In this document: piece after piece, positions 48,639 through 63,869 of the stretch
Numbering within the stretch: position 1 is the first letter of the stretch
Layout of the letters: the number at the start of each line of letters is the position of its first letter
Source: Hyphomicrobiales bacterium
Lineage (GTDB): Bacteria; Pseudomonadota; Alphaproteobacteria; Rhizobiales; Phreatobacteraceae
Reading direction: 5' to 3'
DNA: 64,000 bases
Assembly: GCA_017304475.1 (NCBI GenBank)
Contig: JAFKKV010000028.1
Location: forward strand, 62,001 to 126,000
The notes under the pieces: generated by a model
What the model was told of the DNA's origin: nothing
The model's database searches: none
The model's input: only the letters and a program-made list of their open reading frames with translations
Position numbers and translations under genes: made by a program

Positions 48639-48857
48639 CTAGCCGGCCTGGCTATAGCGCTTGTGCGGTTTCGGAGGAGGGCCCCGCACCAGGCCTTCGA
48701 CGTCACGGTCCCGCTGGTCTCCGAAAGTCCCGGCTCCGACCATGTCGCCGTGGTTGCGGTCCTGTCCCTGATTGCCGCGGGACGTCCCGCCCGTCTTGTT
48801 GGGTTCGTCTCGATTGACGTCTCGGCGCGATCCACCGGGATGCGGGCTGTTCGACAT
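48639..48857 (-). CDS. Small hydrophilic protein, putative stress-regulon member
   Basis: A 72-residue protein rich in Gly, Arg, Asp, Asn and Pro (SPHPGGSRRDVNRDEPNK, then QGQDRNHGD). It is probably disordered, with no family recognised. A very strong AGGAGG site precedes the ATG, and an EcfG-type promoter lies 70-94 bp upstream, which together support a real gene of the general stress response. It is divergent from the gene at 49024. Confidence 0.7.
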   Translation of the reverse strand: MSNSPHPGGSRRDVNRDEPNKTGGTSRGNQGQDRNHGDMVGAGTFGDQRDRDVEGLVRGPPPKPHKRYSQAG

Positions 48858-48926
48858 GACGACCTCCTGTCGGGCGCTTCAGCAGCCACACGCCCGATCG
48901 ACGGTGCCCGGCGCCCCTTGCAAATC

Positions 48927-48951
48927 AACCGCCGGTGGGCCCGGTTGTTCC
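48927..48951 (-). promoter_or_regulatory. Sigma-EcfG-type promoter (for 48639-48857)
   Basis: On the minus strand: GGAAC (48951-48947), 17-nt spacer, GTT (48929-48927). It matches the alphaproteobacterial EcfG consensus and points at the small hydrophilic protein gene. Confidence 0.7.
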
Positions 48952-48970
48952 CCCATCCCTGTTTCGGTCT

Positions 48971-48995
48971 GGAACCGCGGGCCCGCCTGCGCGTT
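48971..48995 (+). promoter_or_regulatory. Sigma-EcfG-type promoter (for 49024-49428)
   Basis: GGAAC (48971-48975), 16-nt spacer, CGTT (48992-48995): an exact match to the EcfG consensus, 29 bp before the start codon. Confidence 0.75.
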
Positions 48996-49023
48996 TGGAA
49001 GACGGATGCGCCGAGGAAATCCG

Positions 49024-49428
49024 ATGCCCACCGACGAACCATGGATGCGCCCCTATATCCTCTCGATTACCGGCCTGTTCCTGGAAGACGGCTTCGCGCG
49101 GCTCGCCGAAGCCTTCGCGCGGCTGGACAGGGGGGCGGCCGAGGCGGCTCTTGCGCGGTTCGAGGAGACGATCCGCGAGCAGGTGGCCGAGATCGGCGAG
49201 CAGGACGATATTCCGCCCGCGGTGCTGGCTGATCTGCGCCACAATATCGAGACGCGGATGGCGGCGGTGTTTGCCCGCGCCCGCCAGCGCATGACCGCGC
49301 CCCTGATCGACGCGGTGGCGAACCCGCCTGATGACGCCGGGCGGCAGGGCCTTGCCGATCCGGTCGGCCGGCCGTCGATCGCGGCCAGCCCGGATGGCGT
49401 GCGGCGCTGGCTCGGCATGGCCGGCTAG
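49024..49428 (+). CDS. Hypothetical protein, helical, putative stress-regulon member
   Basis: A 134-residue acidic, mostly helical protein (LFLEDGFARLAEAFARLDRGAAEAALARFEETIREQ). No membrane span or known domain. GAGGAAA precedes the ATG and an exact EcfG promoter lies just upstream. Its stop TAG and the stop of the convergent small membrane gene share the tetranucleotide CTAG. Confidence 0.72.
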   Translation: MPTDEPWMRPYILSITGLFLEDGFARLAEAFARLDRGAAEAALARFEETIREQVAEIGEQDDIPPAVLADLRHNIETRMAAVFARARQRMTAPLIDAVANPPDDAGRQGLADPVGRPSIAASPDGVRRWLGMAG

Positions 49429-49589
49429 ACGCCGGCGCCGAGGCCCCCGAGCAGATAGATGATCAGCACGATCACCAGCACGGTGCCCAGACCTCCGCCG
49501 AGTCCGGCTGTGCCATAGGCGCGATGGCCGAAATAGCCTCCACCTCCGAGCAGGAGGAGAATGAGGATGATCAGCAGCAGCGGCGACAT
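49425..49589 (-). CDS. Small membrane protein, DUF3309-like
   Basis: A 54-residue protein read directly from the sequence. It begins MSPLLLIILILLLLGGGG, has a short polar centre (YFGHRAYGTAG), and ends with a second hydrophobic helix (TVLVIVLIIYLLGGLGAGV). The layout of two short helices around a Gly-rich centre resembles DUF3309 proteins. GGAGGAG lies seven bases before the ATG. It follows the gene at 49640-49885 on the same strand by 50 bp and is probably co-transcribed from its EcfG promoter. Confidence 0.72.
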   Translation of the reverse strand: MSPLLLIILILLLLGGGGYFGHRAYGTAGLGGGLGTVLVIVLIIYLLGGLGAGV

Positions 49590-49639: not shown

Positions 49640-49885
49640 TCAGGCTTGGCGACGCGGTTTCGACGGCGCGCCCGGCTTGGTTTCCGACGAGGTGGCGGCC
49701 ACCGGGTCGCTTGCCGGGAATGTGTCCTTCAGCGCCTTGGTCAGGTCACTGTCTGCTTCATGATCGCCATGTTTCGGCGGCATGGTGGGCCCCGATCCGG
49801 CGATGGCTTCCTCGAATTCGCGCGTTCCCTCGGCCTGCATGTCCTGGGCCTTGCGGTCGGCAAGCGATTTTCCGGAATGAGCCAT
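49640..49885 (-). CDS. Small hydrophilic protein, putative stress-regulon member
   Basis: An 81-residue, probably disordered protein. The start MAHSGKSLADRKAQDMQAEG is set by AGGAGGACAGT just upstream; the frame is open further but lacks any other ribosome site. The C-terminal half has ALKDTFPASDPVAATSSETKPG, a segment that recurs in small rhizobial stress proteins. An EcfG promoter sits 25-49 bp upstream. Divergent from the DUF2188-like gene. Confidence 0.72.
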   Translation of the reverse strand: MAHSGKSLADRKAQDMQAEGTREFEEAIAGSGPTMPPKHGDHEADSDLTKALKDTFPASDPVAATSSETKPGAPSKPRRQA

Positions 49886-49909: not shown

Positions 49910-49934
49910 AACTGAGGGCACGTCGATCGGTTCC
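49910..49934 (-). promoter_or_regulatory. Sigma-EcfG-type promoter (for 49640-49885)
   Basis: Minus strand GGAAC (49934-49930), 17-nt spacer, GTT (49912-49910). Confidence 0.68.
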
Positions 49935-49957: not shown

Positions 49958-49982
49958 GGAACTTCCGCGCGCCGGACGGGTT
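49958..49982 (+). promoter_or_regulatory. Sigma-EcfG-type promoter (for 50010 operon)
   Basis: GGAAC (49958-49962), 16-nt spacer, GGTT (49979-49982), 28 bp before the DUF2188-like gene. Confidence 0.7.
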
Positions 49983-50009: not shown

Positions 50010-50270
50010 ATGCCTGAGGTTCATTATGCGGTGATCCAGCATGACGGTGGTTGGGCCTATCGGCTGGGCGAGGTCATTTCGGAGACTTTCGCGTCGCGGG
50101 ACGAGGCCCTGGTGGCCGCCGAAAGCGCGGCGGCCCGCCAGCGCACGCCCGGCGAGGCCGTCGAGATCGAATATGAGGACGGCGACGGCCGCTGGCACAA
50201 GGAGCGTTCGGCCGGCGACGACCGGCCCGAGGCAACCGTCGACGACGCCACGCGCCGGAGAGAGCCGTGA
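50010..50270 (+). CDS. DUF2188-like small protein
   Basis: An 86-residue protein with the two-strand/helix pattern of DUF2188: YAVIQHDGGWAYRLGEVISETFASRDEALVAAESAAARQ. The tail is charged. GAGGGAGG precedes the ATG and an EcfG promoter lies upstream. The stop overlaps the next gene (TGATG), so this, the following small gene and the lipid kinase appear to form a stress-induced operon. Function of the family is unknown. Confidence 0.75.
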   Translation: MPEVHYAVIQHDGGWAYRLGEVISETFASRDEALVAAESAAARQRTPGEAVEIEYEDGDGRWHKERSAGDDRPEATVDDATRRREP

Positions 50271-50473
50271 TGGGCCATCCGATCCCGAAACACAGTCCCG
50301 GTTTCGACGAGGACGATCCGGCCCGCCGCCGGCGGGTGCCCGACGACGACCGCGAGGCGGTGATCGATCCGACACGCCATCCCGACCAGGACCCGGCGAT
50401 CGACCGGCCGATCGACGGCGTCGACGACCCGCCGGGCGAGCCGCGGACGGGCGATGACCAGGGGCCCGATTGA
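50270..50473 (+). CDS. Small acidic, Asp/Pro-rich protein
   Basis: A 67-residue protein, mostly Asp, Pro and Arg (DEDDPARRRRVPDDDREAVI), expected to be disordered. ATG overlaps the preceding stop; a GTG in frame three bases earlier is an alternative. Its end runs into a 15-bp tandem repeat array. No family recognised. Called because of coupling to the preceding gene. Confidence 0.5.
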   Translation: MGHPIPKHSPGFDEDDPARRRRVPDDDREAVIDPTRHPDQDPAIDRPIDGVDDPPGEPRTGDDQGPD

Positions 50474-50528
50474 TCCGGCCATGATTGATCCGGCCATGAT
50501 TGATCCGGGCATGACTGATCTCGCCATG
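50469..50528 (+). repeat. Four tandem copies of a 15-bp unit
   Basis: Units at 50469, 50484, 50499 and 50514: two identical copies of ATTGATCCGGCCATG, a third with one change and a fourth with three. In the frame of the following kinase gene they read as IDPAM repeats, each with a possible ATG. The array may be a slippage-prone element before the kinase. Confidence 0.9.
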
Positions 50529-50594
50529 AACCAGGATCTGTCCAGGCGGCCGACCTCCGATCGGGAAGAGACCGGCAATGTTTCGAGGGGGCGA

Positions 50595-51524
50595 TTGACC
50601 GAGAGCATGGCATTTGGACTGGCGCCGGGCGCCTCGGTGGCGATCCTCGCCAATCGCAGTTCGGGGCTCACATCGCGCACCGGGCAGGCCGTCGACATCG
50701 CGGTGTCGATGCTCGCCGCGCATGGCTTTTACCCCCGGCTGTTCATGGCGAAGCGCGGCCGGCTGGGCGAAGCGCTGGCGGCCTGCCGGCGCGACGATCC
50801 GGATCTCGTCATCGTCATCGGCGGTGACGGAACCATTCTCGCCGCCGCGGAAGCCTTTCTCGAGACCGGGACGCCGCTCGCCATCGTGCCGCTCGGCACG
50901 GTCAATCAGCTCGCCCGCGACCTCGATATTCCCCTGGATCCGCAACTGGCCATGGCGGCGCTGGCGGCCGGCACGGTCAAGGGCATCGATGTCGGACGGG
51001 TCAACGGCCAGGCCTTTCTCTGCACCTGCGTGGTCGGGCCGCTCGCGCGGCTGCAGCGCTATCGCGAACAGGCGCGCGGCCGGCTTCCCGCGACGCTGCT
51101 CGCCATGGCGACGACCTTGCTGAAGGCCTTCAGCCTGAGACCCATGCATCTGGTTCTCGGCGACGGCGCCCGCACCTGGCGGGAGGACAGCCGCGGCGTG
51201 ATCGTCTCGGTCAATCCGTTCCTGACCCAGCCGTCGCGCATTCCCAGGCGCGGCCGGCTCGATGGCGGCCGGCTGGCCGTCTATGCCGCGCGCGACCATG
51301 GCCGCCTGACGCTGGTGCGGATGGCCGCGGCCATTCTCGCCGGGCGTGGCGGCGACGATGCCGGCATCGTTTATCACGAGGCGCCCGCCGTCACGATCGC
51401 GGCGCGGCGCAGGCGCATCACCGTCCTGAACGACGGCGAGGTCCGCCTCCTGGCGACGCCGCTACGCTTCGAACTGAGCCCGGCGGCCCTGCATGTCCTG
51501 GTGCCTGGCCCCGCCGGCGCCTAG
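50595..51524 (+). CDS. Diacylglycerol/lipid kinase family protein
   Basis: About 309 residues. DAGK catalytic domain with ILANRSSG at the N-terminus and the nucleotide motif VIVIGGDGTILAAAEAFL; PLGTVNQLARDLDIP follows. The C-terminal beta domain is present. It phosphorylates a lipid such as diacylglycerol or a related substrate at the membrane. The TTG at 50595 has AGGGGGCGA at good spacing; ATG 50609 and upstream ATGs within the tandem repeat are alternatives. It ends convergently with otsB, sharing CTAG at the stops. Probably expressed from the stress promoter at 49958. Confidence 0.88.
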   Translation: MTESMAFGLAPGASVAILANRSSGLTSRTGQAVDIAVSMLAAHGFYPRLFMAKRGRLGEALAACRRDDPDLVIVIGGDGTILAAAEAFLETGTPLAIVPLGTVNQLARDLDIPLDPQLAMAALAAGTVKGIDVGRVNGQAFLCTCVVGPLARLQRYREQARGRLPATLLAMATTLLKAFSLRPMHLVLGDGARTWREDSRGVIVSVNPFLTQPSRIPRRGRLDGGRLAVYAARDHGRLTLVRMAAAILAGRGGDDAGIVYHEAPAVTIAARRRRITVLNDGEVRLLATPLRFELSPAALHVLVPGPAGA

Positions 51525-52306
51525 GCCGGCCTGCCATTGGCGATGCGCGACAGCCAGGACCGCACCTCCGCCGGCTGCTGGAAGGCCGCGTCGGCGTGGC
51601 GGAAATGCTCGCCCGCCACCTTCAGGCCGAAGCCGCCGGCGGCCTCGGCCACAGTGAAGGCATCCTCGTCGGCGCGGTCGTCGCCGATCATGATCGGGAT
51701 CCGTTCGGCAAAGGGCTTTCGGCGCATGATTTCCCTGAGCGCGGTCGCCTTCGACGTGCCGTTGGGGATCACCTCGATCACCGCGCGGCCCTCCTTGAGG
51801 TGATGATCGAGATTGAGCTCGACCAGGAGATGGGCCAGCGTATTGAGCAGTGCGGGTCCTGCCTCCGGCGCCTGGCGGAAGTGAACGGCGAGGATCGGCC
51901 CCTTATATTCCAGCCGGACGCCGGGATGGCTTGCCGCAAGCGCAACCGCACGCGCGAGCAGGGCGGGCGCTATCGCGGGCGGCAGGGGCTCGACCGGCCC
52001 CGCCGTGGCGAAGCTGAATTCGAGGCCATGGAGGCCTGAGCCGGCAAGCCGGGTGGGGGCGATCATGCGCGCGACATCGGCGAGATGCCGGCCGGTCACC
52101 ACGGCGACGGCACCGCCGAGGCGCTGCTGCAGCCGGGCGAGATCGGGCGTCAGGGTGGGCGGCAGGATCACCTCTTCGGGCGTGTCGGCAATGTCCACCA
52201 GCGTGCCGTCGAAGTCGAAATAGACGGCATAGTCGTCCGGACGCAGGCAGATCTGCGGAACCAGCAGGTCCGGCAGCGATCGGGATCTGGAGGCGTCGGT
52301 CATCAT
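51521..52306 (-). CDS. otsB: Trehalose-6-phosphate phosphatase
   Basis: A 261-residue HAD phosphatase that makes trehalose from trehalose 6-phosphate. HAD motif I is DFDGTLVDIADTPEE, followed by VVTGRHLADVARM, HGLEF (cap region), EVIPNGTSKATALREIM and motif IV MIGDDRADEDAF. Start Met1 or Met2 at 52306/52303. No otsA is in the window. An exact EcfG promoter lies about 85 bp upstream, which fits the known role of trehalose in the general stress response. Confidence 0.95.
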   Translation of the reverse strand: MMTDASRSRSLPDLLVPQICLRPDDYAVYFDFDGTLVDIADTPEEVILPPTLTPDLARLQQRLGGAVAVVTGRHLADVARMIAPTRLAGSGLHGLEFSFATAGPVEPLPPAIAPALLARAVALAASHPGVRLEYKGPILAVHFRQAPEAGPALLNTLAHLLVELNLDHHLKEGRAVIEVIPNGTSKATALREIMRRKPFAERIPIMIGDDRADEDAFTVAEAAGGFGLKVAGEHFRHADAAFQQPAEVRSWLSRIANGRPA

Positions 52307-52389: not shown

Positions 52390-52414
52390 AACGCCGGTGC
52401 ATCGGCGAGGTTCC
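52390..52414 (-). promoter_or_regulatory. Sigma-EcfG-type promoter (for otsB)
   Basis: Minus strand GGAAC (52414-52410), 16-nt spacer, CGTT (52393-52390): exact consensus. Confidence 0.78.
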
Positions 52415-52511: not shown

Positions 52512-52537
52512 GGAACTGTCGGCCCGGCCTTTGGGTT
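52512..52537 (+). promoter_or_regulatory. Sigma-EcfG-type promoter (for 52562-52717)
   Basis: GGAAC (52512-52516), 17-nt spacer, GGTT (52534-52537), 25 bp before the small gene. Confidence 0.65.
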
Positions 52538-52561: not shown

Positions 52562-52717
52562 ATGATGATGCACCCGAAGGAACCAGGTGGCTGGCAGGAT
52601 GCCCAGGCGCCGGAGAAGCCCGATGACGGCAAGCGCGGCCAGCAGACCCAGACCGGCAGCCGCGAGAAGGAACAACAGGGCGGCCAGAAAAGCGGGCCCG
52701 CCGGCCAGCAGCGCTGA
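52562..52717 (+). CDS. Small hydrophilic protein, putative stress-regulon member
   Basis: A 51-residue Gln/Gly/Lys-rich protein (KPDDGKRGQQTQTGSREK) with three ATG codons in a row at the start and AGAGGAGG just before them. It has no recognised family and is probably disordered. Evidence is the ribosome site, the EcfG promoter and the likeness in composition to the other small genes of this island. A frame on the opposite strand looks hydrophobic but has no start site and would run through the otsB promoter. Confidence 0.62.
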   Translation: MMMHPKEPGGWQDAQAPEKPDDGKRGQQTQTGSREKEQQGGQKSGPAGQQR

Positions 52718-52817: not shown

Positions 52818-54887
52818 TTGTCCGCTGCCGCCAGCTATCTGACCAAGCTCAACCCCGAGCAGCGGCGGGCGGTGGAACATGGCGCGGGCGCTGCCACCGG
52901 CGGCGGGCCGCTTCTGGTGATCGCCGGTGCCGGCTCCGGCAAGACCAATACGCTGGCGCACCGGGTGGCCCATCTGATCGTCGGCGGCGCCGATCCACGC
53001 CGGATCATGCTGCTGACCTTTTCGCGCCGGGCGGCGGCCGAAATGACCCGCAGGGTCGAGCGCATCGCAGCCGAAGCGCTCGGCGCCAAGGCGGGCGTGA
53101 TGACCGATGCCTTGAGCTGGGCCGGCACGTTTCACGGCGTCGGCGCGCGCATCCTGCGCGACTATGCCGGCGAGATCGGCCTCGATCCCGGCTTCACCAT
53201 TCACGACCGTGAGGATTCGGCCGATCTCATCAACCTCTGCCGGCACGAGCTCGGCTTCTCCAAGACCGAAACGCGGTTTCCGACCAAGGGCACCTGCCTT
53301 GCCATCTATTCGCGCGCGGTCAATGCCGAGATGGCGCTGGAGGAGGTGCTTCGGCTGGCCTTCCCCTGGTGCATCGCCTGGACCGCCGAACTGAAGCAGC
53401 TGTTCTCAGCCTATGTCGAGGCCAAGCAGGGCCAGAACGTGCTCGATTACGACGACCTGCTGCTCTATTGGGCGCAAATGGCCGCCGAACCGGCGCTGGC
53501 GGAGGACCTGTCCGCCCGTTTCGACCACATCCTGGTCGACGAATACCAGGACACCAACCGGCTTCAGTCGTCCATCCTGGTCGCCTTGAAGCCGCGCGGC
53601 ACCGGCCTGACCGTCGTTGGCGACGATGCCCAGTCGATCTATTCGTTCCGCGCCGCGACGGTGCGCAACATTCTCGATTTTCCCGGCCAGTTCGATCCAC
53701 CGGCCGCGATCGTCACGCTCGACCGCAATTACCGCTCGACCCAGCCGATCCTGGCCGCCGCCAATGCGGTCATCGGCGAGGCCAAGGAGCGCTTCACCAA
53801 GAACCTCTGGACCGAGCGCGCCTCCGGCGCCCGTCCCGGGCTGATCACGGTCCGGGACGAGATCGACCAGGCGCGTTATGTCGCCGACCGGATCCTGGAA
53901 AATCGCGAGGCGGGCACGGCGCTGAAGGCCCAGGCCGTGCTGTTCCGCACCTCCCACCACGGCGGTCCGCTGGAGGTCGAGCTCGTCCGGCGCAACATTC
54001 CCTTCGTCAAGTTCGGCGGGCTCAAATTTCTCGACAGCGCCCATGTCAAAGACCTCCTGGCGCTGCTCCGGCTGGTGCAGAACCCGCGCGACCGGGTCGC
54101 CGGCTTCCGGGTGCTGCAGCTCATTCCCGGCATCGGCGCCGGCTCGGCCGGGCGCCTGCTCGACCACATGGCCGTGGCCGAAGACCCGGTCGCCGCGCTG
54201 GCCGGCGCGCCCGCGCCGCCGCGTGCCGCCGCCGACTGGCCGGCCTTCGTGGCGCTTGTCGGCGATCTGCGCGCCGGCCGGTGCGGCTGGCCGGCCGAAC
54301 TCGGCGCGGCCCGGCTCTGGTACGAGCCGCATCTGGAACGCATGCATGAGGACGCGAGCGTTCGCCGCGCCGATCTCCTGCAACTGGAGCAGATCGCCGG
54401 CGGTTATGCCTCGCGCGAGCGGTTCCTGACCGAACTGACCCTCGATCCGCCCGACGCCACCAGCGACCAGGCCGGCGTGCCGCTGCTCGACGAAGACTAT
54501 CTCATCCTGTCGACCATCCATTCCGCCAAGGGCCAGGAATGGAAATCGGTCTTCGTGCTCAATGCGGTGGACGGCTGCATTCCCTCCGATCTCGGCGCCG
54601 GCACCAGTTCGGAGATCGAGGAGGAGCGGCGGCTGCTCTATGTCGCGATGACGCGGGCCAAGGACGACCTGCATCTGATGGTGCCGCAGCGCTTCTTCAC
54701 CCATCAGCAGTCCTCCGGCGGCGACCGGCATGTCTATGCCCAGCGCACGCGCTTCATCCCGCCGGCCATTCTGGCGCTGTTCCAGCACGGCACCTGGCCG
54801 GTGGCGCGCGATCAGGCCGGCGCCTCCCGCGCCACCGCGCCCCTGAAGGTCGATATCGGCCAGCGCATGCGCGGCATGTGGCGCTGA
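52818..54887 (+). CDS. UvrD/Rep-family ATP-dependent DNA helicase
   Basis: A 689-residue superfamily 1 helicase starting at TTG. Motif I is AGAGSGKTNTLAHR, Ia MLLTFSRRAAAEM, II VDEYQDTN, III VVGDDAQSIYSFRAA, IV LDRNYRSTQPIL, V STIHSAKGQEWKSVFV and VI LLYVAMTRAKDDLHLM. All are intact, so it should be an active 3'-5' helicase in DNA repair or replication. It has no own EcfG motif, but the small gene 100 bp upstream on the same strand does, so readthrough could make it stress-responsive. It is shorter than UvrD because of a reduced 2B region and C-terminus. Confidence 0.94.
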   Translation: MSAAASYLTKLNPEQRRAVEHGAGAATGGGPLLVIAGAGSGKTNTLAHRVAHLIVGGADPRRIMLLTFSRRAAAEMTRRVERIAAEALGAKAGVMTDALSWAGTFHGVGARILRDYAGEIGLDPGFTIHDREDSADLINLCRHELGFSKTETRFPTKGTCLAIYSRAVNAEMALEEVLRLAFPWCIAWTAELKQLFSAYVEAKQGQNVLDYDDLLLYWAQMAAEPALAEDLSARFDHILVDEYQDTNRLQSSILVALKPRGTGLTVVGDDAQSIYSFRAATVRNILDFPGQFDPPAAIVTLDRNYRSTQPILAAANAVIGEAKERFTKNLWTERASGARPGLITVRDEIDQARYVADRILENREAGTALKAQAVLFRTSHHGGPLEVELVRRNIPFVKFGGLKFLDSAHVKDLLALLRLVQNPRDRVAGFRVLQLIPGIGAGSAGRLLDHMAVAEDPVAALAGAPAPPRAAADWPAFVALVGDLRAGRCGWPAELGAARLWYEPHLERMHEDASVRRADLLQLEQIAGGYASRERFLTELTLDPPDATSDQAGVPLLDEDYLILSTIHSAKGQEWKSVFVLNAVDGCIPSDLGAGTSSEIEEERRLLYVAMTRAKDDLHLMVPQRFFTHQQSSGGDRHVYAQRTRFIPPAILALFQHGTWPVARDQAGASRATAPLKVDIGQRMRGMWR

Positions 54888-54922: not shown

Positions 54923-54947
54923 GGAACCTCCCGCCTTCGATCGGGTT
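54923..54947 (+). promoter_or_regulatory. Sigma-EcfG-type promoter (for 55001-55282)
   Basis: GGAAC (54923-54927), 16-nt spacer, GGTT (54944-54947). Confidence 0.68.
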
Positions 54948-55000: not shown

Positions 55001-55282
55001 ATGGCTGATGCGCAAGGCCGCACGGGACCGAAGGGGGCAGGGGCGGACGGCCCGACCGAGCTCGAGGACAAGATCGTCCGCGGCGCCAGCGATTTGGCCT
55101 CCTCCGCGAGCAAGACGCTGAAGACCGTCGGTGTCGACACCGATGTCATGGTCGATGCCGCCAAGGGCCAGGCGACCGAATTGCAGAAACTGCTGATCGA
55201 CGAGATCGCCGCCCGGCCGTTCCGGGCGCTTGGCATCGCCGCGGCGATCGGCTTCGTGGTCGGCGTGTGGAACGCGCGGTAG
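55001..55282 (+). CDS. DUF883/ElaB-like membrane-anchored stress protein
   Basis: A 93-residue protein. A charged N-terminal helix region (ELEDKIVRGASDLASSASKTLKTVG) is followed by a C-terminal glycine-rich anchor (RPFRALGIAAAIGFVVGVWNAR), the layout of YqjD/ElaB-type proteins, which bind ribosomes at the inner membrane in stationary-phase E. coli. GGAGG precedes ATG 55001, and an EcfG promoter is 54-78 bp upstream. Function here is inferred from layout only. Confidence 0.78.
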   Translation: MADAQGRTGPKGAGADGPTELEDKIVRGASDLASSASKTLKTVGVDTDVMVDAAKGQATELQKLLIDEIAARPFRALGIAAAIGFVVGVWNAR

Positions 55283-55479: not shown

Positions 55480-56385
55480 TCAACGCCCCGGGCGGTGCCG
55501 CTGCGAGGCGGTCTGGGCGGCGTGGGCGCGGCGATCTTCGGCGCTCACCGGGAAGCGCTGGCCGAGAACCTCCTCGGCGATGACCTCGAAACGCGTCAGC
55601 CTATGGGCGCCGAAGGAATTGATGATCGGCACGTCGGCGGCATCCTGGCCATAGGCCATGACGATGCGGCCGATGCGCGGCATGTTGTGGCGCGCGTCGA
55701 ATGTGTACCACTGGCCGTCGAGAAAGGCCTCGAACCAGGCGCAGAAATCCATCGGGGCGGGATCCCTGGGCACGCCGATATCGGGCAGGTAGCCGGTGGC
55801 GTAGCGGGCGGGAATGTTCATGCAGCGGCACAGCGTGATCGCCAGATGGGCGAAGTCGCGGCACACCCCGACGCGCTCCTCATAGGCCTCGGCCGCGGTG
55901 CGCGTGTCGCGGGCATATTGATAACCGAAGCCGAGCCGGTCATGGACGAAGCTGGTGATCGCCTGAACGCGCCCCCAGCCGGGAGCGACCGCGCCGAAGC
56001 GCTGCCAGGCCATGGCCGACAATTGATCGGTTTCGCAATAGCGGCTGCCGCGCAGGAAGATCAACGTCTCCGCGGGCAGGTTTTCCGGGGCGACCTCGCC
56101 GGCCGAAGGCGCCACCGTGTCGGGAAAGCCGGGGTCGAAGATCACGCCGCCGGCCGCGAGCGACAGGCCGCCCGCGGGCGCCGTGATGCGCCGGCTGAGA
56201 TTGCCGAACTGGTCTTCGTGCAGCGACTGCTCGACCGGCATGGCCGGGTCGGCCAGCGCCAGCGCGGAGAGGTCATGGGCTTCCGTCAGGTCCTGCCGCC
56301 GCCCGGGATGGATGTCGAGCAAGGTGATCAATGGCGTCGGAGCGTCGCAGGCGATGTCGATGTGAAAGCCATAACGGATATGCAT
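55480..56385 (-). CDS. Transglutaminase-like family protein
   Basis: A 301-residue protein with a transglutaminase/protease-like core. The N-terminal beta domain starts MHIRYGFHIDIACDAPTPL; the core has VHDRLGFGYQYARDTRTAAEAYEERVGVCRDFAHL (nucleophile Cys in VGVCRDFAH) and WYTFDARHNMPRIG (His with Asp). This is the bacterial transglut_core group of unknown substrate, possibly a cysteine protease or amidohydrolase. Start set at 56385 by family N-terminus. No EcfG motif was found upstream. Confidence 0.9.
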   Translation of the reverse strand: MHIRYGFHIDIACDAPTPLITLLDIHPGRRQDLTEAHDLSALALADPAMPVEQSLHEDQFGNLSRRITAPAGGLSLAAGGVIFDPGFPDTVAPSAGEVAPENLPAETLIFLRGSRYCETDQLSAMAWQRFGAVAPGWGRVQAITSFVHDRLGFGYQYARDTRTAAEAYEERVGVCRDFAHLAITLCRCMNIPARYATGYLPDIGVPRDPAPMDFCAWFEAFLDGQWYTFDARHNMPRIGRIVMAYGQDAADVPIINSFGAHRLTRFEVIAEEVLGQRFPVSAEDRRAHAAQTASQRHRPGR

Positions 56386-57026: not shown

Positions 57027-57791
57027 TCAGATCAGTGGCCGCGGCGTCGCCTCGCGTTCGAACTGCGCCGCCATGCGGGCGGTCAGGCGCGGGTTGAGCA
57101 GGGTCAGCCGCCCCCCGGAAAAGGTGAACAGGCCGGCGCGCCGCAGCCTGGACCAAGTCTTGCTGGTATGGACCAGCGACAGCCCGAGCGCATCCGCCAT
57201 GTGCTGCTGCGACAGGGGGAACTGGAAGGTGCGGTCGTTGACCAGGCCGAGCGCGTCGGACCGCCGATAGAGCGAAATGATCAGCGCGGCGACCCGTTCG
57301 GCGGCATTGCGCTGGCCGACCGAGACGAGGTTCTCGTCGACCATGCTCTCCTCGCGCGAGCCGAGCCAGGCGAGCTCATAGGCCATGGCGGGCATCTTGA
57401 CGAACAGGTCCCAGATATGGCGGCGGGCGAAGACGCAGACCTCGGCGTCGGTCAGCGCTTCGATGCCGTGCTGCGACGCGCTCAGGAGCGAGGCCTGCAG
57501 CCCCAATATGTCGCCGGGCAGCAGGAAATTGAGGATCTGCCGCCGCCCGTCCGGCAAGGTCTTGTAGCGATAGGCCCAGCCGGCGAACAGCGTGAACAGC
57601 TCGGCATTGGTCTCGCCCGGGCTGATGATGTCGGTGCCCGCCTTGATCAGGCGGTGATCGATCTTCATCGACTGGATGAACGAGACGTCGGCATCGCTTT
57701 TGTCGGCAAAGACCGGCTTTGCCCGAAGCGGGCAGGCGGCGCAGGGAATTCCGGCGCGCGGCAGGCGGCTTTTGTCGTTTATCACGAGCAT
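57027..57791 (-). CDS. Crp/Fnr family transcriptional regulator
   Basis: A 254-residue regulator. N-terminal Cys pair in PCAACPLRAKP (Cys17, Cys20), then a cyclic-nucleotide-binding-type beta roll (GTDIISPGETNAELFTLFAGWAYRYKTLPDGRRQILNFLLPGDILGL is its core), and a C-terminal winged HTH (QQHMADALGLSLVHTSKTWSRLRRAGLF). It has only part of the Fnr cysteine set, so oxygen sensing by an Fe-S cluster is uncertain. GGGAGA precedes ATG 57791. An exact EcfG promoter drives it, and a second drives the divergent ABC transporter. Confidence 0.92.
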   Translation of the reverse strand: MLVINDKSRLPRAGIPCAACPLRAKPVFADKSDADVSFIQSMKIDHRLIKAGTDIISPGETNAELFTLFAGWAYRYKTLPDGRRQILNFLLPGDILGLQASLLSASQHGIEALTDAEVCVFARRHIWDLFVKMPAMAYELAWLGSREESMVDENLVSVGQRNAAERVAALIISLYRRSDALGLVNDRTFQFPLSQQHMADALGLSLVHTSKTWSRLRRAGLFTFSGGRLTLLNPRLTARMAAQFEREATPRPLI

Positions 57792-57819: not shown

Positions 57820-57844
57820 AACGGCGGCGCGGCCCGGAAGTTCC
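57820..57844 (-). promoter_or_regulatory. Sigma-EcfG-type promoter (for Crp/Fnr gene)
   Basis: Minus strand GGAAC (57844-57840), 16-nt spacer, CGTT (57823-57820): exact consensus. Confidence 0.78.
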
Positions 57845-57855
57845 GCGCATCCGGC

Positions 57856-57880
57856 GGAACCGGTGCGGGCATCGGGCGTT
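57856..57880 (+). promoter_or_regulatory. Sigma-EcfG-type promoter (for SbmA-like ABC transporter)
   Basis: GGAAC (57856-57860), 16-nt spacer, CGTT (57877-57880): exact consensus, about 80 bp before the start codon. Confidence 0.78.
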
Positions 57881-57958: not shown

Positions 57959-59788
57959 ATGGCTGAAAAGGAAGGTCTGCCGCGGGACGATGGTCCGTCC
58001 GGTCCGTCCCGCGAGCGTTCCAGGGCGCGTGAATTCTTTCGCACCGCGCTGGGGTTCTGGCGGGGGCGCTCCAGGCTGCGTGCCTGGGGCCTGACGCTGC
58101 TGGTTCTCGCCTTCGCCGCCGCCCAGCTCGGCGCGCAGCTCGGCATCAATGCCTGGCAACGCCTGTTCTTCGACGCGCTCGAGCGCAAATCCGTCGGCGA
58201 GGTTCTCGGCGCCATCGGCTGGGTGCCGGTCATTGTCGGCTTTTCGGCGGTCACGCTGTCGGGCGTGGTGGTCACGCGCATGCTCCTGCAGACGCGCTGG
58301 CGCGAATGGCTGACGCTGCATCTCGCCGGCTGGTGGATCGCCGACCAGCGCTACTACCGGCTGGGTTTCATCGCCGAGGAACAGACCGCTCCGGAATTCC
58401 GCATCGCCGAGGATGTCCGGCTGTCGGTCGAGCCGCTGGTCGAGTTCGCCCTGGGCCTGATCACCGCCACCGTCACGGCGCTGACATTTGCCGCCATTCT
58501 CTGGCAGGTGGCGGGATCGATCGAATTCCGGCTGGCCGGAACCACGGTCGTCATTCCCTTCTACATGGCGATCGCGGCGATCCTCTATGCCGTCACGGTC
58601 TCGCTCGCGGCCTATTTCACCGGCCGCCCGCTGGTCGCCAAGGTGTCGCACAAGAACCAGATGGAAGCGCAGTTTCGCGCCGAAATGACCAGGCTCCGGG
58701 AAAATGCCGAGAGCATCGCGCTGATCAAGGGCGACGACGACGAGCGGGCCTCGGTCCAGGACAATTACCGCAATGTCGTGCGCTCCTGGATCCATATCGT
58801 TCGCCAGCAGGGCGTCATCGCCATCGTGATGAACACCAATGGTGCGCTGTTCCCGATCATCCCGCTGGTGCTGATCGCGCCGAAATATCTCTCCGGCGAC
58901 CTGTCGCTCGGCGCGGTCATGCAGGTGACGGCCGCCTTCAGCGCCGTCCAGTCGGCGCTGATCTGGTTCGTCGACAATTTCGTCAAGCTCGCCGAATGGT
59001 ATGCCTCGCTCGAGCGCGTCGACGAGCTGGTCGAGACGCTGGAAGATCTCGATATCGGCACGATCATGGAGGGTGAGGGGCAGGTCGAGCTCGGCACCAG
59101 CGCCGACGACGCCATCCATATCGACAATCTGTCGCTCGCCCATCGCAACGGCCGCGTCGTCATCGCCGACGCATCGGTGATCATCAAGGCCGGCGAAAAG
59201 GTGCTGATCACCGGCGCGAGCGGCACCGGCAAGAGCACGCTGATCCGCGCACTCGCCGGACTGTGGCCCTGGGGATCGGGCTCGATCAGCGTGCCGCCGG
59301 GCCAGGACATCGCCTTCGTGCCGCAGAAACCCTATATCCCCACCGGCAATCTGAAGGCCGCCCTGGTCTATCCCCATGCCGACATGGCTGTCGGCAACGA
59401 GGTCATCGTCGAGGCGATGAAACGTTGCGGGCTCGGCTATCTCAGCCGGCGCCTGGACGACGACAATGACAAGTGGGACCAGACGCTGTCGGGCGGCGAG
59501 CGCCAGCGGATCGCCTTCGCGCGCCTGCTGATCCAGAAGCCGGACATCATCATCATGGACGAGGCGACCTCGGCGCTGGACGAGGACAGCCAGAACGGGC
59601 TGCTCGGCCTGCTGCGCGAGGACCTCGCGGCCGCCACCGTCATCAGCGTCGGCCATCGCGCCGGCCTGGAGGAGTTCCACGACCGCAAGATCACCCTGGA
59701 GCGCCGGCCGGCCGGCGCCCGCCTGACCTCGGAACGGCTGACCAATCCGCTCTGGCGCATCTTCGGGCTGAACAAGGCCGGCGCCTGA
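57959..59788 (+). CDS. ABC transporter, fused SbmA/BacA-like permease and ATPase
   Basis: A 609-residue half transporter. Six membrane segments in the SbmA/BacA fold come first (residues about 40-340; WREWLTLHLAGWWIADQRYYRL and NAESIALIKGDDDE are typical), then the ATPase: Walker A TGASGTGKST, FVPQKPYIPTGNLK, signature LSGGERQR, Walker B IIIMDEATSALDE. The family (YddA/ABCD-like) is linked to uptake of peptides, B12 or very-long-chain acyl compounds. ATG 57959 or in-frame ATG 57950 may be used. Its exact EcfG promoter places it in the stress regulon. Confidence 0.92.
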   Translation: MAEKEGLPRDDGPSGPSRERSRAREFFRTALGFWRGRSRLRAWGLTLLVLAFAAAQLGAQLGINAWQRLFFDALERKSVGEVLGAIGWVPVIVGFSAVTLSGVVVTRMLLQTRWREWLTLHLAGWWIADQRYYRLGFIAEEQTAPEFRIAEDVRLSVEPLVEFALGLITATVTALTFAAILWQVAGSIEFRLAGTTVVIPFYMAIAAILYAVTVSLAAYFTGRPLVAKVSHKNQMEAQFRAEMTRLRENAESIALIKGDDDERASVQDNYRNVVRSWIHIVRQQGVIAIVMNTNGALFPIIPLVLIAPKYLSGDLSLGAVMQVTAAFSAVQSALIWFVDNFVKLAEWYASLERVDELVETLEDLDIGTIMEGEGQVELGTSADDAIHIDNLSLAHRNGRVVIADASVIIKAGEKVLITGASGTGKSTLIRALAGLWPWGSGSISVPPGQDIAFVPQKPYIPTGNLKAALVYPHADMAVGNEVIVEAMKRCGLGYLSRRLDDDNDKWDQTLSGGERQRIAFARLLIQKPDIIIMDEATSALDEDSQNGLLGLLREDLAAATVISVGHRAGLEEFHDRKITLERRPAGARLTSERLTNPLWRIFGLNKAGA

Positions 59789-59882
59789 GGGACGGTTTGG
59801 TCGAGGCCGCCTGGGGGGCGGCATGTCCAGCGGACTCGGCAAGGGAGAGGGCGCCGATCATCGCTTGCGTTCCGGTTTCGCA

Positions 59883-60127: not shown

Positions 60128-60152
60128 GGAACAACCCGCCATTTCGCGGGTT
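60128..60152 (+). promoter_or_regulatory. Sigma-EcfG-type promoter (for 60190-60435)
   Basis: GGAAC (60128-60132), 16-nt spacer, GGTT (60149-60152). Confidence 0.68.
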
Positions 60153-60189
60153 GAGACTGCATCGATCCGAAACGAGGCAGGAGATGTTC

Positions 60190-60435
60190 ATGTCCATCGC
60201 ATCGCGTCCGGTTCTGCCGCTGCTGTCGTTTGCCGCGGCCATCCTGGTGATCCTGGCGATCTGTCTGGTCAGCATGATGCTCCAGCCGGTCTACCGGCCG
60301 GCCGTGCTGGGCGGCGCTACCGATCAGCTCATTCAAATGCCGGCCGGCGGCTTGGCGGTCGACGCGGCCGCGGCCAAGGATACGCTGGCTCTGGTCCTGC
60401 CCAACGGCGGTGATCACCAGGTCGTCGAGCGTTGA
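60190..60435 (+). CDS. Small membrane protein, putative stress-regulon member
   Basis: About 81 residues with one N-terminal membrane helix (VLPLLSFAAAILVILAICLVSMML) and a periplasmic tail (QPVYRPAVLGGATDQLIQM). GGAG lies six bases before ATG 60190; ATG 60184 in the same frame is an alternative. It has an EcfG promoter upstream and ends 6 bp from the convergent histidine kinase gene. No family recognised. Confidence 0.65.
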   Translation: MSIASRPVLPLLSFAAAILVILAICLVSMMLQPVYRPAVLGGATDQLIQMPAGGLAVDAAAAKDTLALVLPNGGDHQVVER

Positions 60436-60441: not shown

Positions 60442-62091
60442 TCAGGCCGTGATGCGCCACGTGCCGAGTTCGCTCGCCGTCGCCGGGGCGGGCTGAACCG
60501 CCTCGGCCTGGGCAGCGAGCCCTGCCAGCATGCGCGGCTGTGGTCCGGGCACCAGGGCGCGATCAGCCGTCAGCCGCACTTCGAAGGCCTTGACGTCAGG
60601 ATCTTCGCCGTCGTCGGCCACGTGCAGCGTGACGCGCACCTCCGGCACCGTCGACAGGCAACGCGAGACGGCCTCGACCACTAGCAGGCCTAGCGCGATG
60701 AGACGGTCGATCGGCAGGCTCAGGTCCGACGTGATATCGCCGTCGATCGTCTGGCCGGACCGGGGCAGCAGCCGTGAGATCGCCGCGAGGACCTCGTCGA
60801 GAAAGACATCGACACGCACCGCATGCATCTCGCCATGGGCGAGCGAGAACCGGTAGGCGATGGACAGCACCTGGACGCGGCATTCCGCCTCGCTCAGCGC
60901 ACGGTTGGCCTCGGCCGAGTGGTTGCGTTTGGCCAGCGACAGGTAGCTCTGAACGATCTGCAGGCTGTTCTTGACCCGATGGTGCAGTTCGCGCACCAGC
61001 AGGCGGTTCTGGTCGAGCGCCGCCTGCAGCGCATGCTGGCGCTGTTCCTGGGCGTCGACCATGGCGTTGAAGGCCCGCGCCACGCTCTTGATGTCGGACG
61101 GCATTTCCTCCGCGACCAGCGCACGCGCGGTGAAGGAGGACTGTTCTTCCTGCCGCGCCGCCTGTTCGATGCCGCGCAGCCAGCGCAGGATATGGCTGTG
61201 AATGGCATGCAGGTAGACCGTGCACAAAAGGGCGAGCGTCGCCAGCGGAATGATCAGCAGCGCCAGGAACTGAGCGCGCGCGGCAAGCGCCGCCGTCTGG
61301 TCGAGGCTCGCCAGCACATAGAGGTTCGGCGCGGCGATCCATTCCCCTGAATAGGATCGCCTGGCGCCGGCGCGGCTCGGCGCGTCGAAGCGTGTGCCGG
61401 TGCGTGGAATCGGCTCGATCGCCGGCAGCCAGCCGGCATCGCTTTCCTCGCTGCCGCGTGCGATCAGCACCTCGTCGCGATGACCGATGAGACCGATCAC
61501 CGCCCCGGATGCCAGGGCGCCGAGATCGAAAGTGCGTTCCAGCGCGGCGACATCGGTCAGCAGCAGGGCCTGCCAGGCGGTGCCGGTCCGGCCGTCGCCG
61601 CTCGCATGAATCGCGAAATAGCGCTTTCCGTCGATCTCGACATAATCGTAGCGCGCCGCCGCGGGCTGGGACGGCGTCGCGGCGGCCGATGGCGGGGCCG
61701 GCATCATGGCATCGATCTTCGCCGCCGACAGTGCCTCGCTACGGCTTGCGAGGCACTCCGTGCCATTGGCGAAACGGATGCGCAGGGCCTGATAGTCCGG
61801 GGCGCCGGCGAGGACACGCCGGCCGATCGCATCGCAATCCGGGCTGCGGACCTCAGCGGCCTGTGCGCCGGCGACCGTTGCCTGAAGGATGCGCAGCGTT
61901 CCGTCGAACCAGACGCGCGTCCTGACCGCATAGTTGGCGACAGCTTCGGTCTGGCGATCCTCGATCGATCCCAGCACCGACCGGTAGGTGGTCACCGCCG
62001 CGGTCGCCGACAGCAGTGCCATCGGCACCGCGATCAGGACCAGAAGTCCGATCAGGCGGCCTCGGACGGTCTGAAACTGGGAAAGCTTCAT
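60442..62091 (-). CDS. Membrane histidine kinase homologue (HisKA_2/HWE type) with degenerate ATP-binding domain
   Basis: A 549-residue inner-membrane protein: TM1 near 13-33, periplasmic sensor about 35-270, TM2 near 274-296, HAMP-like linker, then the dimerisation/phosphotransfer helix VRELHHRVKNSLQIVQSYLSLAKR (H-box His371, intact). The C-terminal region should be an HATPase, but the N-box NELVTNA is LVVEAVSRC (the two Asn replaced by Val472 and Arg477), and no DxGxG or GxG box follows. It therefore probably cannot bind ATP. It is third in the nepR-ecfG operon (15 bp gap), which suggests it controls PhyR as a phosphatase or phosphorelay partner, like PhyP of Sphingomonas. Confidence 0.9.
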   Translation of the reverse strand: MKLSQFQTVRGRLIGLLVLIAVPMALLSATAAVTTYRSVLGSIEDRQTEAVANYAVRTRVWFDGTLRILQATVAGAQAAEVRSPDCDAIGRRVLAGAPDYQALRIRFANGTECLASRSEALSAAKIDAMMPAPPSAAATPSQPAAARYDYVEIDGKRYFAIHASGDGRTGTAWQALLLTDVAALERTFDLGALASGAVIGLIGHRDEVLIARGSEESDAGWLPAIEPIPRTGTRFDAPSRAGARRSYSGEWIAAPNLYVLASLDQTAALAARAQFLALLIIPLATLALLCTVYLHAIHSHILRWLRGIEQAARQEEQSSFTARALVAEEMPSDIKSVARAFNAMVDAQEQRQHALQAALDQNRLLVRELHHRVKNSLQIVQSYLSLAKRNHSAEANRALSEAECRVQVLSIAYRFSLAHGEMHAVRVDVFLDEVLAAISRLLPRSGQTIDGDITSDLSLPIDRLIALGLLVVEAVSRCLSTVPEVRVTLHVADDGEDPDVKAFEVRLTADRALVPGPQPRMLAGLAAQAEAVQPAPATASELGTWRITA

Positions 62092-62106
62092 GCGCGGCTG
62101 GCTTCG

Positions 62107-62667
62107 TCAGTTGCCGGACCCCGAAGCGCCCGATGTCTGCAGGGCCGCCGTGGTCCTCCGGTCCGGGCCGAATTCATCGGCGCCGTGAATCTGCAGGAGT
62201 TCGGCAAGCTTGCCGCGGGCGCGATTGACCCGGCTCTTGACCGTGCCGACGGCAACCCCGCAGATCTCCGCGGTCTCCTCGTAGGACAGTCCGCTGGCGC
62301 CGACCATGATCAGCACTTCGCGCTGCTCTTCGGGCAAGGTCGCCAGGGCCTTGCGGAAATCGGCGAGGTCCAGATGGCTTTCCTGATTGCCCTGGGTGGA
62401 CAGGCGTTCGGTATAGGTGCCCTCGCTGTCCTGGATCTCGCGGCCGCGCTTGCGGTAGAGCGAGAAATAGGTGTTGCGCAGGATGGTGAAGAGCCAGGCG
62501 CGCAGGCTCGTCCCGAGTTCGAACTTCTCGGCATTCGACCAGGCTTTCAGGAGCGTGTCCTGAACCAGGTCGTCGGCCAGTTGCATGGAACCCGACAGCG
62601 ACGCCGCGAAGGCTCGCAGGTTCGGGATTTCCGCGACCAGGCCGTCCTTGAACGCATCACCGCTCAT
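62107..62667 (-). CDS. ecfG: General stress response sigma factor EcfG
   Basis: A 186-residue ECF sigma factor. Region 2: LADDLVQDTLLKAW and GTSLRAWLFTILRNTYFSLYRKRGRE. Region 4: TLPEEQREVLIMVGASGLSYEETAEICGVAVGTVKSRVNRAR. It directs RNA polymerase to GGAAC-N16/17-CGTT promoters. ATG 62667 overlaps the end of nepR by 11 bp (an in-frame GTG lies 9 bp further up), so it is translationally coupled to its anti-sigma factor. Confidence 0.97.
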   Translation of the reverse strand: MSGDAFKDGLVAEIPNLRAFAASLSGSMQLADDLVQDTLLKAWSNAEKFELGTSLRAWLFTILRNTYFSLYRKRGREIQDSEGTYTERLSTQGNQESHLDLADFRKALATLPEEQREVLIMVGASGLSYEETAEICGVAVGTVKSRVNRARGKLAELLQIHGADEFGPDRRTTAALQTSGASGSGN

Positions 62668-62878
62668 CGGCGTCACCGTTGCGCTGCGCCTTCAGCTCCT
62701 TGGCCTCGAGCTGCGCCAGCAGAACCAGGAAGCGATCCGGGATCGGCGCTTTGACGAGATCGTCGTAATGGGCCTTGAGCGACCGTCCGATGGCATCCTG
62801 GACGCGTTGATCGAGAACCGGTTCGGTCTCGAAGACCTCGGCATCCTGGGTCGGGTCGTCGTCTCTCGGCTTTGCCAT
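62657..62878 (-). CDS. nepR: Anti-sigma factor NepR
   Basis: A 73-residue anti-sigma factor that sequesters EcfG until phosphorylated PhyR takes it away. The conserved core is VLDQRVQDAIGRSLKAHYDDLVKAPIPDRFLVLLAQLE, with the typical acidic, disordered N-terminus. It leads the nepR-ecfG-kinase operon from the shared EcfG promoter and is divergent from phyR, the standard alphaproteobacterial arrangement. Confidence 0.97.
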   Translation of the reverse strand: MAKPRDDDPTQDAEVFETEPVLDQRVQDAIGRSLKAHYDDLVKAPIPDRFLVLLAQLEAKELKAQRNGDADER

Positions 62879-62978
62879 GCTCGTCCTCTTTCATCGCCTT
62901 GCGCGATCCGATCCGCTGCCGCCGCTCGCTCGCGGCAATGTCGGCGGCGGCGGCGCGCAGATACACAAATCCGGTCAT

Positions 62979-63005
62979 GGAACCTATCGCGCTGATGAAA
63001 GTTCC
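62979..63005. promoter_or_regulatory. Bidirectional palindromic sigma-EcfG promoter between nepR and phyR
   Basis: GGAAC (62979-62983), 17 nt, GTTCC (63001-63005). Read rightward it gives GGAAC-N16-AGTT before phyR; read leftward it gives GGAAC-N16-GGTT before nepR. The -35 element of one strand overlaps the -10 element of the other, so the two promoters occupy the same 27 bp and should be auto-activated by EcfG. Confidence 0.78.
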
Positions 63006-63083
63006 ATGCTCGGGCAAAAATAAAGTGCTTGCCAAGCGAGGGTGGCAAATGGTCGCCTTCCGACCATCAAGGAGAACGCAACG

Positions 63084-63869
63084 ATGTCGATCGCGAAGGA
63101 AATAGCGCAACATCTTCCGTATCTTAGGCGCTTCGCCCGCGCCCTGTGCGGAACCCAGGCGAGCGGCGACGCCTATGTCGTCGCCACGCTCGAGGCGCTG
63201 ATCGCGGATCCCTCCGTCTATGAACGCAATCTCGGCGAACGCATCGCCCTCTACCGGATCTTCCTCAAGCTCTGGTCCTCCGTCGGTATCAATGTCGAGG
63301 CGGCCGGCGACCGCTCCTTCGCCGAGCGCAACCTCGACGCGCTGACGCCACGGTCGCGCCAGGCCTTCCTGCTGCGCACGGTCGAGGGCTTTTCGCTGCC
63401 CGAGGTCGCGACCATCATGGCCCAGCCGGTGGTCGAGACCGCCGATCTGCTCGACCGCGCCGGCCGCGAGATCGCCGAGCAGATGGCGACCGACGTCCTG
63501 ATCATCGAGGATGAGCCGATCATCGCGCTCGACATCGAAACCATGGTGCAGGAGCTCGGCCACCGCGTCACCGGCATCGCGCGCACCCACAAGGAGGCCG
63601 TCGCCCTGGTCGCCGCCAAGCGTCCCGGGCTGGTGCTGGCCGACATCCAGCTCGCCGACGGCAGCTCCGGTCTCGATGCCGTCAACGAGATCCTGCGGTC
63701 GATTTCGGTGCCGGTCATCTTCATCACCGCCTATCCGGAGCGCCTGCTGACCGGCGACCGGCCGGAACCGGCCTTCCTGATCACCAAGCCGTTCCAGCAG
63801 GATGCGGTGAAGGCGGCGATCAGCCAGGCTCTGTTCTTCGACCGACGCGCCGGCAAGGCGGCAGCCTGA
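63084..63869 (+). CDS. phyR: Response regulator PhyR (anti-anti-sigma factor)
   Basis: A 261-residue protein. Residues 1-135 are the sigma-like domain that mimics EcfG and binds NepR (HLPYLRRFARALCGTQASGDAYV, FLLRTVEGFSLPEVATIM). Residues 138-255 are the receiver domain (VLIIEDEP, phosphoacceptor Asp187 in VLADIQLAD, Lys235 in ITKPF). On phosphorylation it releases EcfG by binding NepR. AAGGAG precedes the ATG. It is autoregulated through the bidirectional EcfG promoter. Confidence 0.98.
   Translation: MSIAKEIAQHLPYLRRFARALCGTQASGDAYVVATLEALIADPSVYERNLGERIALYRIFLKLWSSVGINVEAAGDRSFAERNLDALTPRSRQAFLLRTVEGFSLPEVATIMAQPVVETADLLDRAGREIAEQMATDVLIIEDEPIIALDIETMVQELGHRVTGIARTHKEAVALVAAKRPGLVLADIQLADGSSGLDAVNEILRSISVPVIFITAYPERLLTGDRPEPAFLITKPFQQDAVKAAISQALFFDRRAGKAAA

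Follow-up and report, generated by a model that had tools for sequence, protein, structure and literature searches.

Are the promoters read by EcfG, the sigma factor of the general stress response (GSR), physically grouped around the genes of their own regulator? The question is raised by a 64,000-nucleotide stretch of a Hyphomicrobiales bacterium (contig JAFKKV010000028.1, positions 62,001 to 126,000; hereafter the window), in which matches to the EcfG promoter consensus, GGAAC-N16/17-NGTT, crowd into the last 15 kb beside phyR, nepR and ecfG. We consider it likely, at a probability of roughly 0.86, that the window carries the single GSR switch of a species presumably belonging to the genus Phreatobacter, set within ~21 kb of target genes that it would control. 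The stretch under study comprised the window, on contig C78 of our numbering, and its right flank (L006), and cluster sites were counted over positions 48601-70000. The host assembly (G000) amounts to 8,382,456 bases in 79 contigs; it was compared with genus members G001-G011, among which G008 is the closest relative searched and G006 is a complete genome. Genes were called with a simple codon-model script, not taken from an annotation, and a site was considered in promoter position when it was not inside a gene and had a start no more than 250 nt away.

The regulatory genes themselves are readily recognized by Pfam. The GSR sigma factor of the extracytoplasmic function (ECF) family is encoded by ecfG (62107..62667, minus strand; Sigma70_r2, Sigma70_r4_2, PhyR_sigma2), whose start is overlapped by the anti-sigma factor gene nepR (62657..62878, minus strand; NepR, 3.8e-15). 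Divergent from this pair lies phyR (63084..63869, plus strand; PhyR_sigma2, PhyR_sigma-like, Response_reg), encoding a response regulator in which a sigma-like domain is joined to a receiver. A sensor kinase gene of the HWE/HisKA_2 type (60442..62091, minus strand; HisKA_2, HWE_HK) follows 15 nt downstream of ecfG and, from this arrangement, is probably co-transcribed with nepR-ecfG, while the right flank encodes a further HWE kinase that contains a CHASE3 domain (Pfam; L006:1208-2485). Searching the whole assembly returned one NepR match and two PhyR_sigma2 matches, the latter being the PhyR and EcfG of this locus. The identities originally assigned to phyR, nepR and ecfG are therefore sound, and the locus is a real and complete PhyR/NepR-EcfG/HWE-kinase switch by Pfam. 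An EcfG consensus precedes nepR-ecfG in the own genome and in 9/9 genus members compared.

Between nepR and phyR the consensus takes the form of a palindrome, GGAAC-N17-GTTCC (62979..63005, both strands), ending in AGTT toward phyR (62979+) and in GGTT toward nepR (62981-). As the palindrome gives the consensus on both strands, the -35 element of one promoter overlaps the -10 element of the other; if both directions fire, the phyR and nepR promoters should exclude each other. The palindromic promoter was found in G000 and G008, and the eight other genus members compared display the nepR site only at the phyR/nepR gap. As a general rule for such loci it was rejected, being present in only 2 of the 80 named loci surveyed below and in 1 of 9 genus relatives.

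We counted 15 matches to GGAAC-N16/17-NGTT in the window, against 1.54 expected and a maximum of 5 in 100 shuffles. Thirteen of them are the orientations listed in the original prediction (12 places, one on both strands), which are all present and all intergenic; the remaining two, 27554+ and 46920+, lie inside genes. The full CGTT ending, previously given for six orientations, occurs in five of the 13, and the cluster, which had been thought to stop at 63869 with the switch genes, continues with five further sites 0.28-5.9 kb past the window end, in the right flank. The region 48601-70000 thereby holds 18 sites in ~21 kb, 18/18 intergenic, at a density of 4.48 per intergenic kb, with no intergenic site among the 7,347 intergenic bases of window positions 1-48600 and none in the right flank at 70001-84000. 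Seventeen of the 18 face a called start at most 250 nt away, as predicted, and the last one, 48927-, faces a 72-amino-acid (72-aa) open reading frame 69 nt away that the codon-model gene caller had overlooked. The spacing is equally restricted in this region: 15 sites have a spacer of 16 and three a spacer of 17, each other spacing from 12 to 22 giving 0-2 sites. Permuted motifs (n = 87, GGAAC excluded) yielded a mean of 0.28 intergenic hits; one-base-shifted motifs still overlap true sites in this control, as does the top permuted motif, CGGAA...GTT (7 hits), one base out of register, and the second-highest gave 2. Chance or base composition as the source of the cluster was ruled out by the shuffles, the permuted motifs and the spacing control.

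We then considered the conservation of the sites, comparing the genes of the 21-kb cluster with the nepR neighbourhood in nine genus members and leaving matches below 40% identity out of the site counts. In G008, 17 genes have a site in both genomes, one only in the own genome, none only in the relative and 10 in neither, an agreement of 27/28 gene pairs: 17 of the 18 site-bearing genes keep their site and all 10 site-less genes lack one there, with a median change in site distance of 1 nt and a spacer identity of 0.64. In G006, the site is present in both genomes for nine genes, in the own genome only for four (9/13 kept), in the relative only for none and in neither for two, and spacer identity falls to just 0.34 while both promoter elements persist. 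The seven other members have 1-7 genes with a site in both, 1-2 with a site only here and 0-3 with one only there. The site before the SbmA-like ABC transporter gene (57856+) is kept in 8/8 genus members having an orthologue in the stretches searched. Several of the G006 orthologues occupy different positions relative to phyR, yet remain nearby, with sites. Grouping is also visible in the relatives themselves: G006 has 95 CGTT sites, of which 11 lie at 938-968 kb (the ecfG locus), 6 at 2982-2990 kb and 4 at 3839-3842 kb, with a maximum of 9/95 in 20 kb versus 6 in 2000 random draws and 3/71 for the reversed motif; in G008, at least 12 of the 123 CGTT sites, 100 of which were listed, fall at 5987-6007 kb. 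Twelve 20-kb control stretches of G006 and G007, taken at round coordinates, contain 7 NGTT sites in 240 kb.

A chance origin of the motifs, from GC-rich intergenic DNA or a dispersed repeat, is hardly credible and is refuted for the cluster as a whole, since the pattern, although short and outnumbered genome-wide by its reversed version (274 versus 397 matches for NGTT, 104 versus 155 for CGTT), is here exclusively intergenic, sharply spaced, nearly unmatched by permuted motifs and kept or lacking gene by gene in G008. A single site could still be a chance match, and the excess of the reversed pattern indicates that many matches outside clusters are probably fortuitous.

At the scale of the assembly, the sites concentrate in three clusters: that of the window, a second at C47:41.5-76 kb (21 NGTT, 14 CGTT) and a third at C1:545-552 kb (9 NGTT, 6 CGTT). 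Together they make up 0.74% of the assembly (61,991 bases) and contain 48/274 NGTT sites (2.03 expected) and 28/104 CGTT sites (0.77 expected). The genome scan that had been proposed as a check, for which equal density in other regions would have been damaging, thus found these numbers in 62 kb of 8.38 Mb and no equal density elsewhere. Within the clusters 23/28 CGTT sites are in promoter position, and the clusters account for 23/50 such sites. The regulon looks concentrated, not confined, and some outside sites may be genuine.

The second cluster includes genes for topoisomerase IB, CsbD, a PRC-barrel protein, NRAMP, a LigD primase-polymerase, an HWE kinase, a glycosyltransferase and a glycogen-debranching-like enzyme. 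In G008 it has a syntenic counterpart at 6834-6861 kb, where 30 NGTT sites occur in 60 kb, and, counting by hand, the site is found in 12/14 matched genes that have their own site and in 0/18 that have none. Recent acquisition of this cluster by the own genome was ruled out by the same synteny. The two genomes that have it in common, G000 with 8.4 Mb and G008 with 7.4 Mb, far exceed the other listed genus members in size (4.1-5.0 Mb).

The third cluster has a different aspect. On the stretch of contig C1 that we denote L004, a tRNA-Lys gene (L004:4080-4155) is followed about 1 kb on by an integrase gene (L004:5196-5786), and the GC content of the element here (L004:4080-16650) is 0.58-0.64, down from 0.64-0.71 ahead of it. 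Two Ku genes and a PRC-barrel gene in it each have an EcfG site; since mostly host-like DNA went into the training of the codon model, gene calls are thin here. The integrase end, meaning the first 3.7 kb of the query, has one match in G004 and two in G011, at 69-80% identity, and the EcfG-bearing part is matched in relatives only in pieces, at 65-74%. With its tRNA near an integrase, lower GC and patchy presence, this cluster has the features of a mobile genomic island, and no direct repeat of the tRNA 3' end was found at its far edge in the 23 kb examined, the contig ending there. Complete absence of the element from relatives was ruled out by the integrase end in G004 and G011 and by relatives of the Ku genes (65-72%) in five members, G001, G002, G005, G007 and G008; the G008 copy lies inside its second cluster (6839-6841 kb), at a place where the own C47 cluster has no Ku pair. 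The integrase end thus appears shared and mobile-looking, and the Ku genes, having relatives in five genus members, are not necessarily foreign to the genus. At isolated EcfG sites of G000 (C13:18262 and C21:35581), or next to them, short sequences share ~80% identity with parts of the C1 element, a hint that promoter-gene units may have been duplicated.

The resemblance of this third cluster to an island suggests that the window cluster could be one too. We judge this very improbable: its GC content of 0.67 is host-like, no tRNA was found in the window, and its genes have orthologues with matching sites in both G008 and G006, so that a tRNA target, foreign composition and absence from relatives are all wanting.

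By their consensus, spacing, position and conservation, and by the kinds of genes that follow them, which match EcfG-dependent genes of Sphingomonas melonis, the sites are presumably used by EcfG. Alternatively, the promoters may be real but recognized by a different ECF sigma factor whose specificity is similar. Overlap of this kind exists in Sinorhizobium between the RpoE6 and RpoE2 regulons (27/40 RpoE6 targets), whose motifs are alike, as far as the available part of that study goes (PMC6180224), and our survey of ECF paralogues in the own genome covered PhyR_sigma2 matches only. This alternative is nevertheless unlikely, as the cluster is centred on ecfG, nepR and phyR, with their own promoters included, and no further EcfG-like protein of the assembly matched PhyR_sigma2.

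The partner switch of the GSR is established for the family: phosphorylated PhyR binds NepR, thereby freeing EcfG. Applied to this locus, stress would activate the HWE kinases, leading to phosphorylation of PhyR, which would then bind NepR and release EcfG. RNA polymerase carrying EcfG would initiate at the GGAAC-N16/17-NGTT promoters, predicted to head ~13 units in the window and five just past it, and would drive genes for the trehalose-phosphatase, PRC-barrel, Crp, SbmA-like ABC transporter, DUF883-like, DUF3309, DUF1328, AI-2E and lipid kinase proteins. The same type of promoter would feed back on nepR-ecfG-kinase and on phyR. Induction of the cluster by stress is what this scheme would imply, and any benefit of co-location is likewise conjectural.

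How exceptional is such a grouping? The original prediction regarded clustering this dense next to the sigma factor's own gene as unusual, EcfG targets being normally scattered. We surveyed the best 80 of at least 558 candidate loci around phyR (the named loci) and found 367 sites outside the phyR-nepR gap, against a permuted mean of 84.7 (87 motifs, highest 213). Fifty-six of the 80 loci reach three times the control mean, 26 exceed every permuted motif and nine have none or one; site density is highest, at 0.62 per kb, immediately past the start of phyR and no longer exceeds the control at 8-10 kb. In a sample of the class, NepR was found in 16/114 genomes, own genome included. Outside the order, 16 loci in 14 genomes of the class, with 1 of 15 newly found NepR genomes left out for a match below cut-off, gave 80 sites, where permuted motifs averaged 14.1 and reached 31 at most, the phyR-nepR gap being included in these counts. 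Since 56/80 loci are enriched around phyR, grouping beside this gene is not unusual, and the survey corrects the view of EcfG targets as simply scattered. What does stand out here is the extent: within ±10 kb of phyR the own genome has 12 sites, a number reached by 4/59 full-length named loci, and it has three clusters. The size and number of its clusters set the own lineage apart. In the literature accessible to us we found no statement of EcfG targets grouped around phyR, which, with subscription papers mostly outside that literature, is not proof of absence.

The families concerned recur as well. Among 283 site-gene pairs near phyR, with names taken from Pfam hits in the window and its right flank, EcfG-preceded DUF883-like genes occur in 34 loci, HWE kinases in 22, PRC-barrel genes in 16 and DUF1328 in 11, followed by AI-2E (7 loci), SbmA-like (5), Crp (5) and transglutaminase genes (4); in all, 11 gene kinds of the window and flank recur in this way in the named loci. 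Clustering around phyR is widespread among alphaproteobacterial GSR loci and probably ancestral to them, and it appears to have grown further in the own lineage, given the two additional EcfG clusters of its genome.

The same survey gives weight to the explanation that the clustering is neutral inheritance with no benefit of proximity. This is a real possibility, at somewhat less than even odds, and it is compatible with a GSR switch set among its targets: a neighbourhood enriched in 56 of the 80 loci, with recurring families, is what inheritance would leave. Against inheritance alone, the G006 orthologues that have shifted relative to phyR have stayed nearby, several with sites, and some homologues of C47-cluster genes lie within ~25 kb of ecfG in G006; both observations suggest repeated gain near the locus. 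To account for the grouping we tentatively, and with low confidence, favour repeated local gain on an ancestral neighbourhood over plain inheritance or a proximity benefit.

Several observations weigh against a switch embedded in its own regulon, or narrow it. Of the CGTT sites outside the clusters, 27/76 are in promoter position, the sum of 19/60 and a hand-counted 8/16, so that the regulon is not confined to the clusters. G004 has just 5 NGTT sites in 40 kb (20 kb on either side of nepR), so the cluster is not universal even within the genus, and the more distant members have fewer genes in common with it and disagree more often about individual sites, as in G002 (6 in both, 2 only here, 3 only there). 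No exact phyR site was found in the 8 genus members other than G000 and G008, and G008 lacks an exact counterpart of the trehalose-phosphatase site. Finally, the assembly has an estimated contamination of 5.44%; with a contig end near the C1 cluster, ownership of that cluster is therefore likely, not proven.

These points notwithstanding, the reading that the window holds a physically grouped EcfG regulon is well supported by sequence, although the group does not end at phyR/nepR/ecfG and runs 6 kb past the window. At its left edge, the 72-aa reading frame (48639..48857, minus strand; no Pfam hit) has an 84% orthologue with a site in G008; its own site (48927..48951, minus, GGTT) is kept in G008, not in G006. 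A CGTT site (48971..48995, plus) points toward a 134-aa protein with no Pfam hit (49024..49428, plus). An AGTT site (49910..49934, minus) faces an 81-aa protein, again with no Pfam hit (49640..49885, minus; site kept in G008 and G006), downstream of which a small DUF3309 protein gene (49425..49589, minus; DUF3309, 2.6e-9) likely belongs to the same transcription unit. On the opposite strand, a GGTT site (49958..49982, plus) heads positions 50010-51524, a putative unit made of a DUF2188 protein (50010..50270, plus; Pfam), a 67-aa protein (50270..50473, plus) that overlaps both neighbours as in an operon and lacks its own site in G000 and G008 alike, and a diacylglycerol-kinase-like lipid kinase (50454..51524, plus; DAGK_cat, YegS_C). 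The trehalose-phosphatase gene (51521..52306, minus; Trehalose_PPase, 3.2e-27) has a CGTT site (52390..52414, minus) that is kept in G006. Next come a GGTT site with spacer 17 (52512..52537, plus), a 50-aa protein with no Pfam hit (52565..52717, plus) and a UvrD-like helicase (52818..54887, plus; Pfam), which sits mid-cluster with no own EcfG site, likewise in G008.

Further right, a GGTT site (54923..54947, plus) precedes a DUF883-like small membrane protein (55001..55282, plus; weak DUF883_C match, below its cut-off), which has EcfG-preceded relatives near phyR in other loci. A transglutaminase-like gene (55480..56385, minus; Pfam) lacks its own site, and its best matches have one in 7/9 genus members (five at 58-61% identity, two at 29-30%). 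A PRC-barrel gene (56519..56911, minus; Pfam) with a CGTT site of spacer 17 (56966..56991, minus) and a Crp-family regulator (57027..57791, minus; cNMP_binding, HTH_Crp_2) with a CGTT site (57820..57844, minus) are followed by the CGTT site (57856..57880, plus) of the SbmA/BacA-like ABC transporter gene (57959..59788, plus; ABC_membrane_2, SbmA_BacA), and a GGTT site (60128..60152, plus) by an 83-aa protein with no Pfam hit (60184..60435, plus). The right-flank sites (L006:277, 3496, 4706, 5823 and 5914) stand before a DUF1328 gene, a DUF883-like gene whose Pfam match is below cut-off, an AI-2E family gene and two small genes of no known kind. Allowing one mismatch with GGA kept, no weaker site was found at 12 starts of site-less genes, and the UvrD-like helicase and transglutaminase genes have no own EcfG site, exact or near. 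Through overlaps and short gaps the sites could nevertheless cover nearly every gene of 48639-63869, the proposed units being DUF2188, the 67-aa protein and the lipid kinase from 49958, the 81-aa gene and DUF3309 from 49910, and nepR, ecfG and the kinase from the nepR site.

Repeats were also noticed: a dispersed intergenic repeat of ~150-190 bases at L002:5758-5950 has more than 20 own-genome matches among the matches listed and occurs in relatives, and by eye similar-looking inverted stretches lie in the window near 48490-48580, 55340-55430 and 59880-60060.

If this organization is confirmed, a few contiguous blocks would contain a large share of a global stress regulon, which could be read, removed or relocated block by block, and the importance of a position close to the sigma gene could be put to the test. 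The promoters also offer a hint at stress functions for small unassigned proteins, such as those at window positions 48639, 49024, 49640, 52565 and 60184, and the integrase-linked C1 cluster suggests that mobile DNA can wire into the host general stress response. Stress-inducible end joining is said to exist in Sinorhizobium; a literature search did not find it. A bolder idea, which we regard as doubtful, is that the GSR of these bacteria consists of modular regulon islands growing by capture of promoter-gene units, with the EcfG promoter as a plug-in standard: incoming DNA carrying it, for example the tRNA-Lys/integrase cluster with its two Ku genes, would be quiet in healthy cells and join the host stress programme, and captured end-joining genes might favour more capture.

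Compared with known systems, the locus is alike to the GSR loci of Rhizobium etli, Methylobacterium extorquens and Caulobacter in having PhyR, NepR, EcfG and an HWE/HisKA2 kinase together and an EcfG-type promoter before nepR; it differs in the number of promoters around it, 13 within 14 kb and, counting the flank, 18 within 21 kb, and in the palindromic promoter shared by phyR and nepR. The consensus agrees with that given for R. etli, GGAAC-N16-CGTT, in the accessible part of the report (PMC3892343), which also describes the small RNA ReC64, with an EcfG1 motif, beside phyR-tcrY: an EcfG-controlled element adjoining phyR, as here, although a single element versus a run of units. The EcfG and RpoE2 regulons of S. 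melonis and Sinorhizobium meliloti use the same promoter type, according to the portions available (PMC6599016, PMC6180224). For S. melonis, the EcfG-dependent genes given there include Crp-like, Ku, PRC-barrel, topoisomerase IB and glycosyltransferase genes (PMC6599016), and target kinds of the two regulons found again here are PRC-barrel, Crp-like, Ku, topoisomerase IB and trehalose or glycan genes. Those regulons are presented, in the same portions, as gene lists that do not mention grouping, whereas here 23/50 promoter-position CGTT sites are gathered in three clusters.

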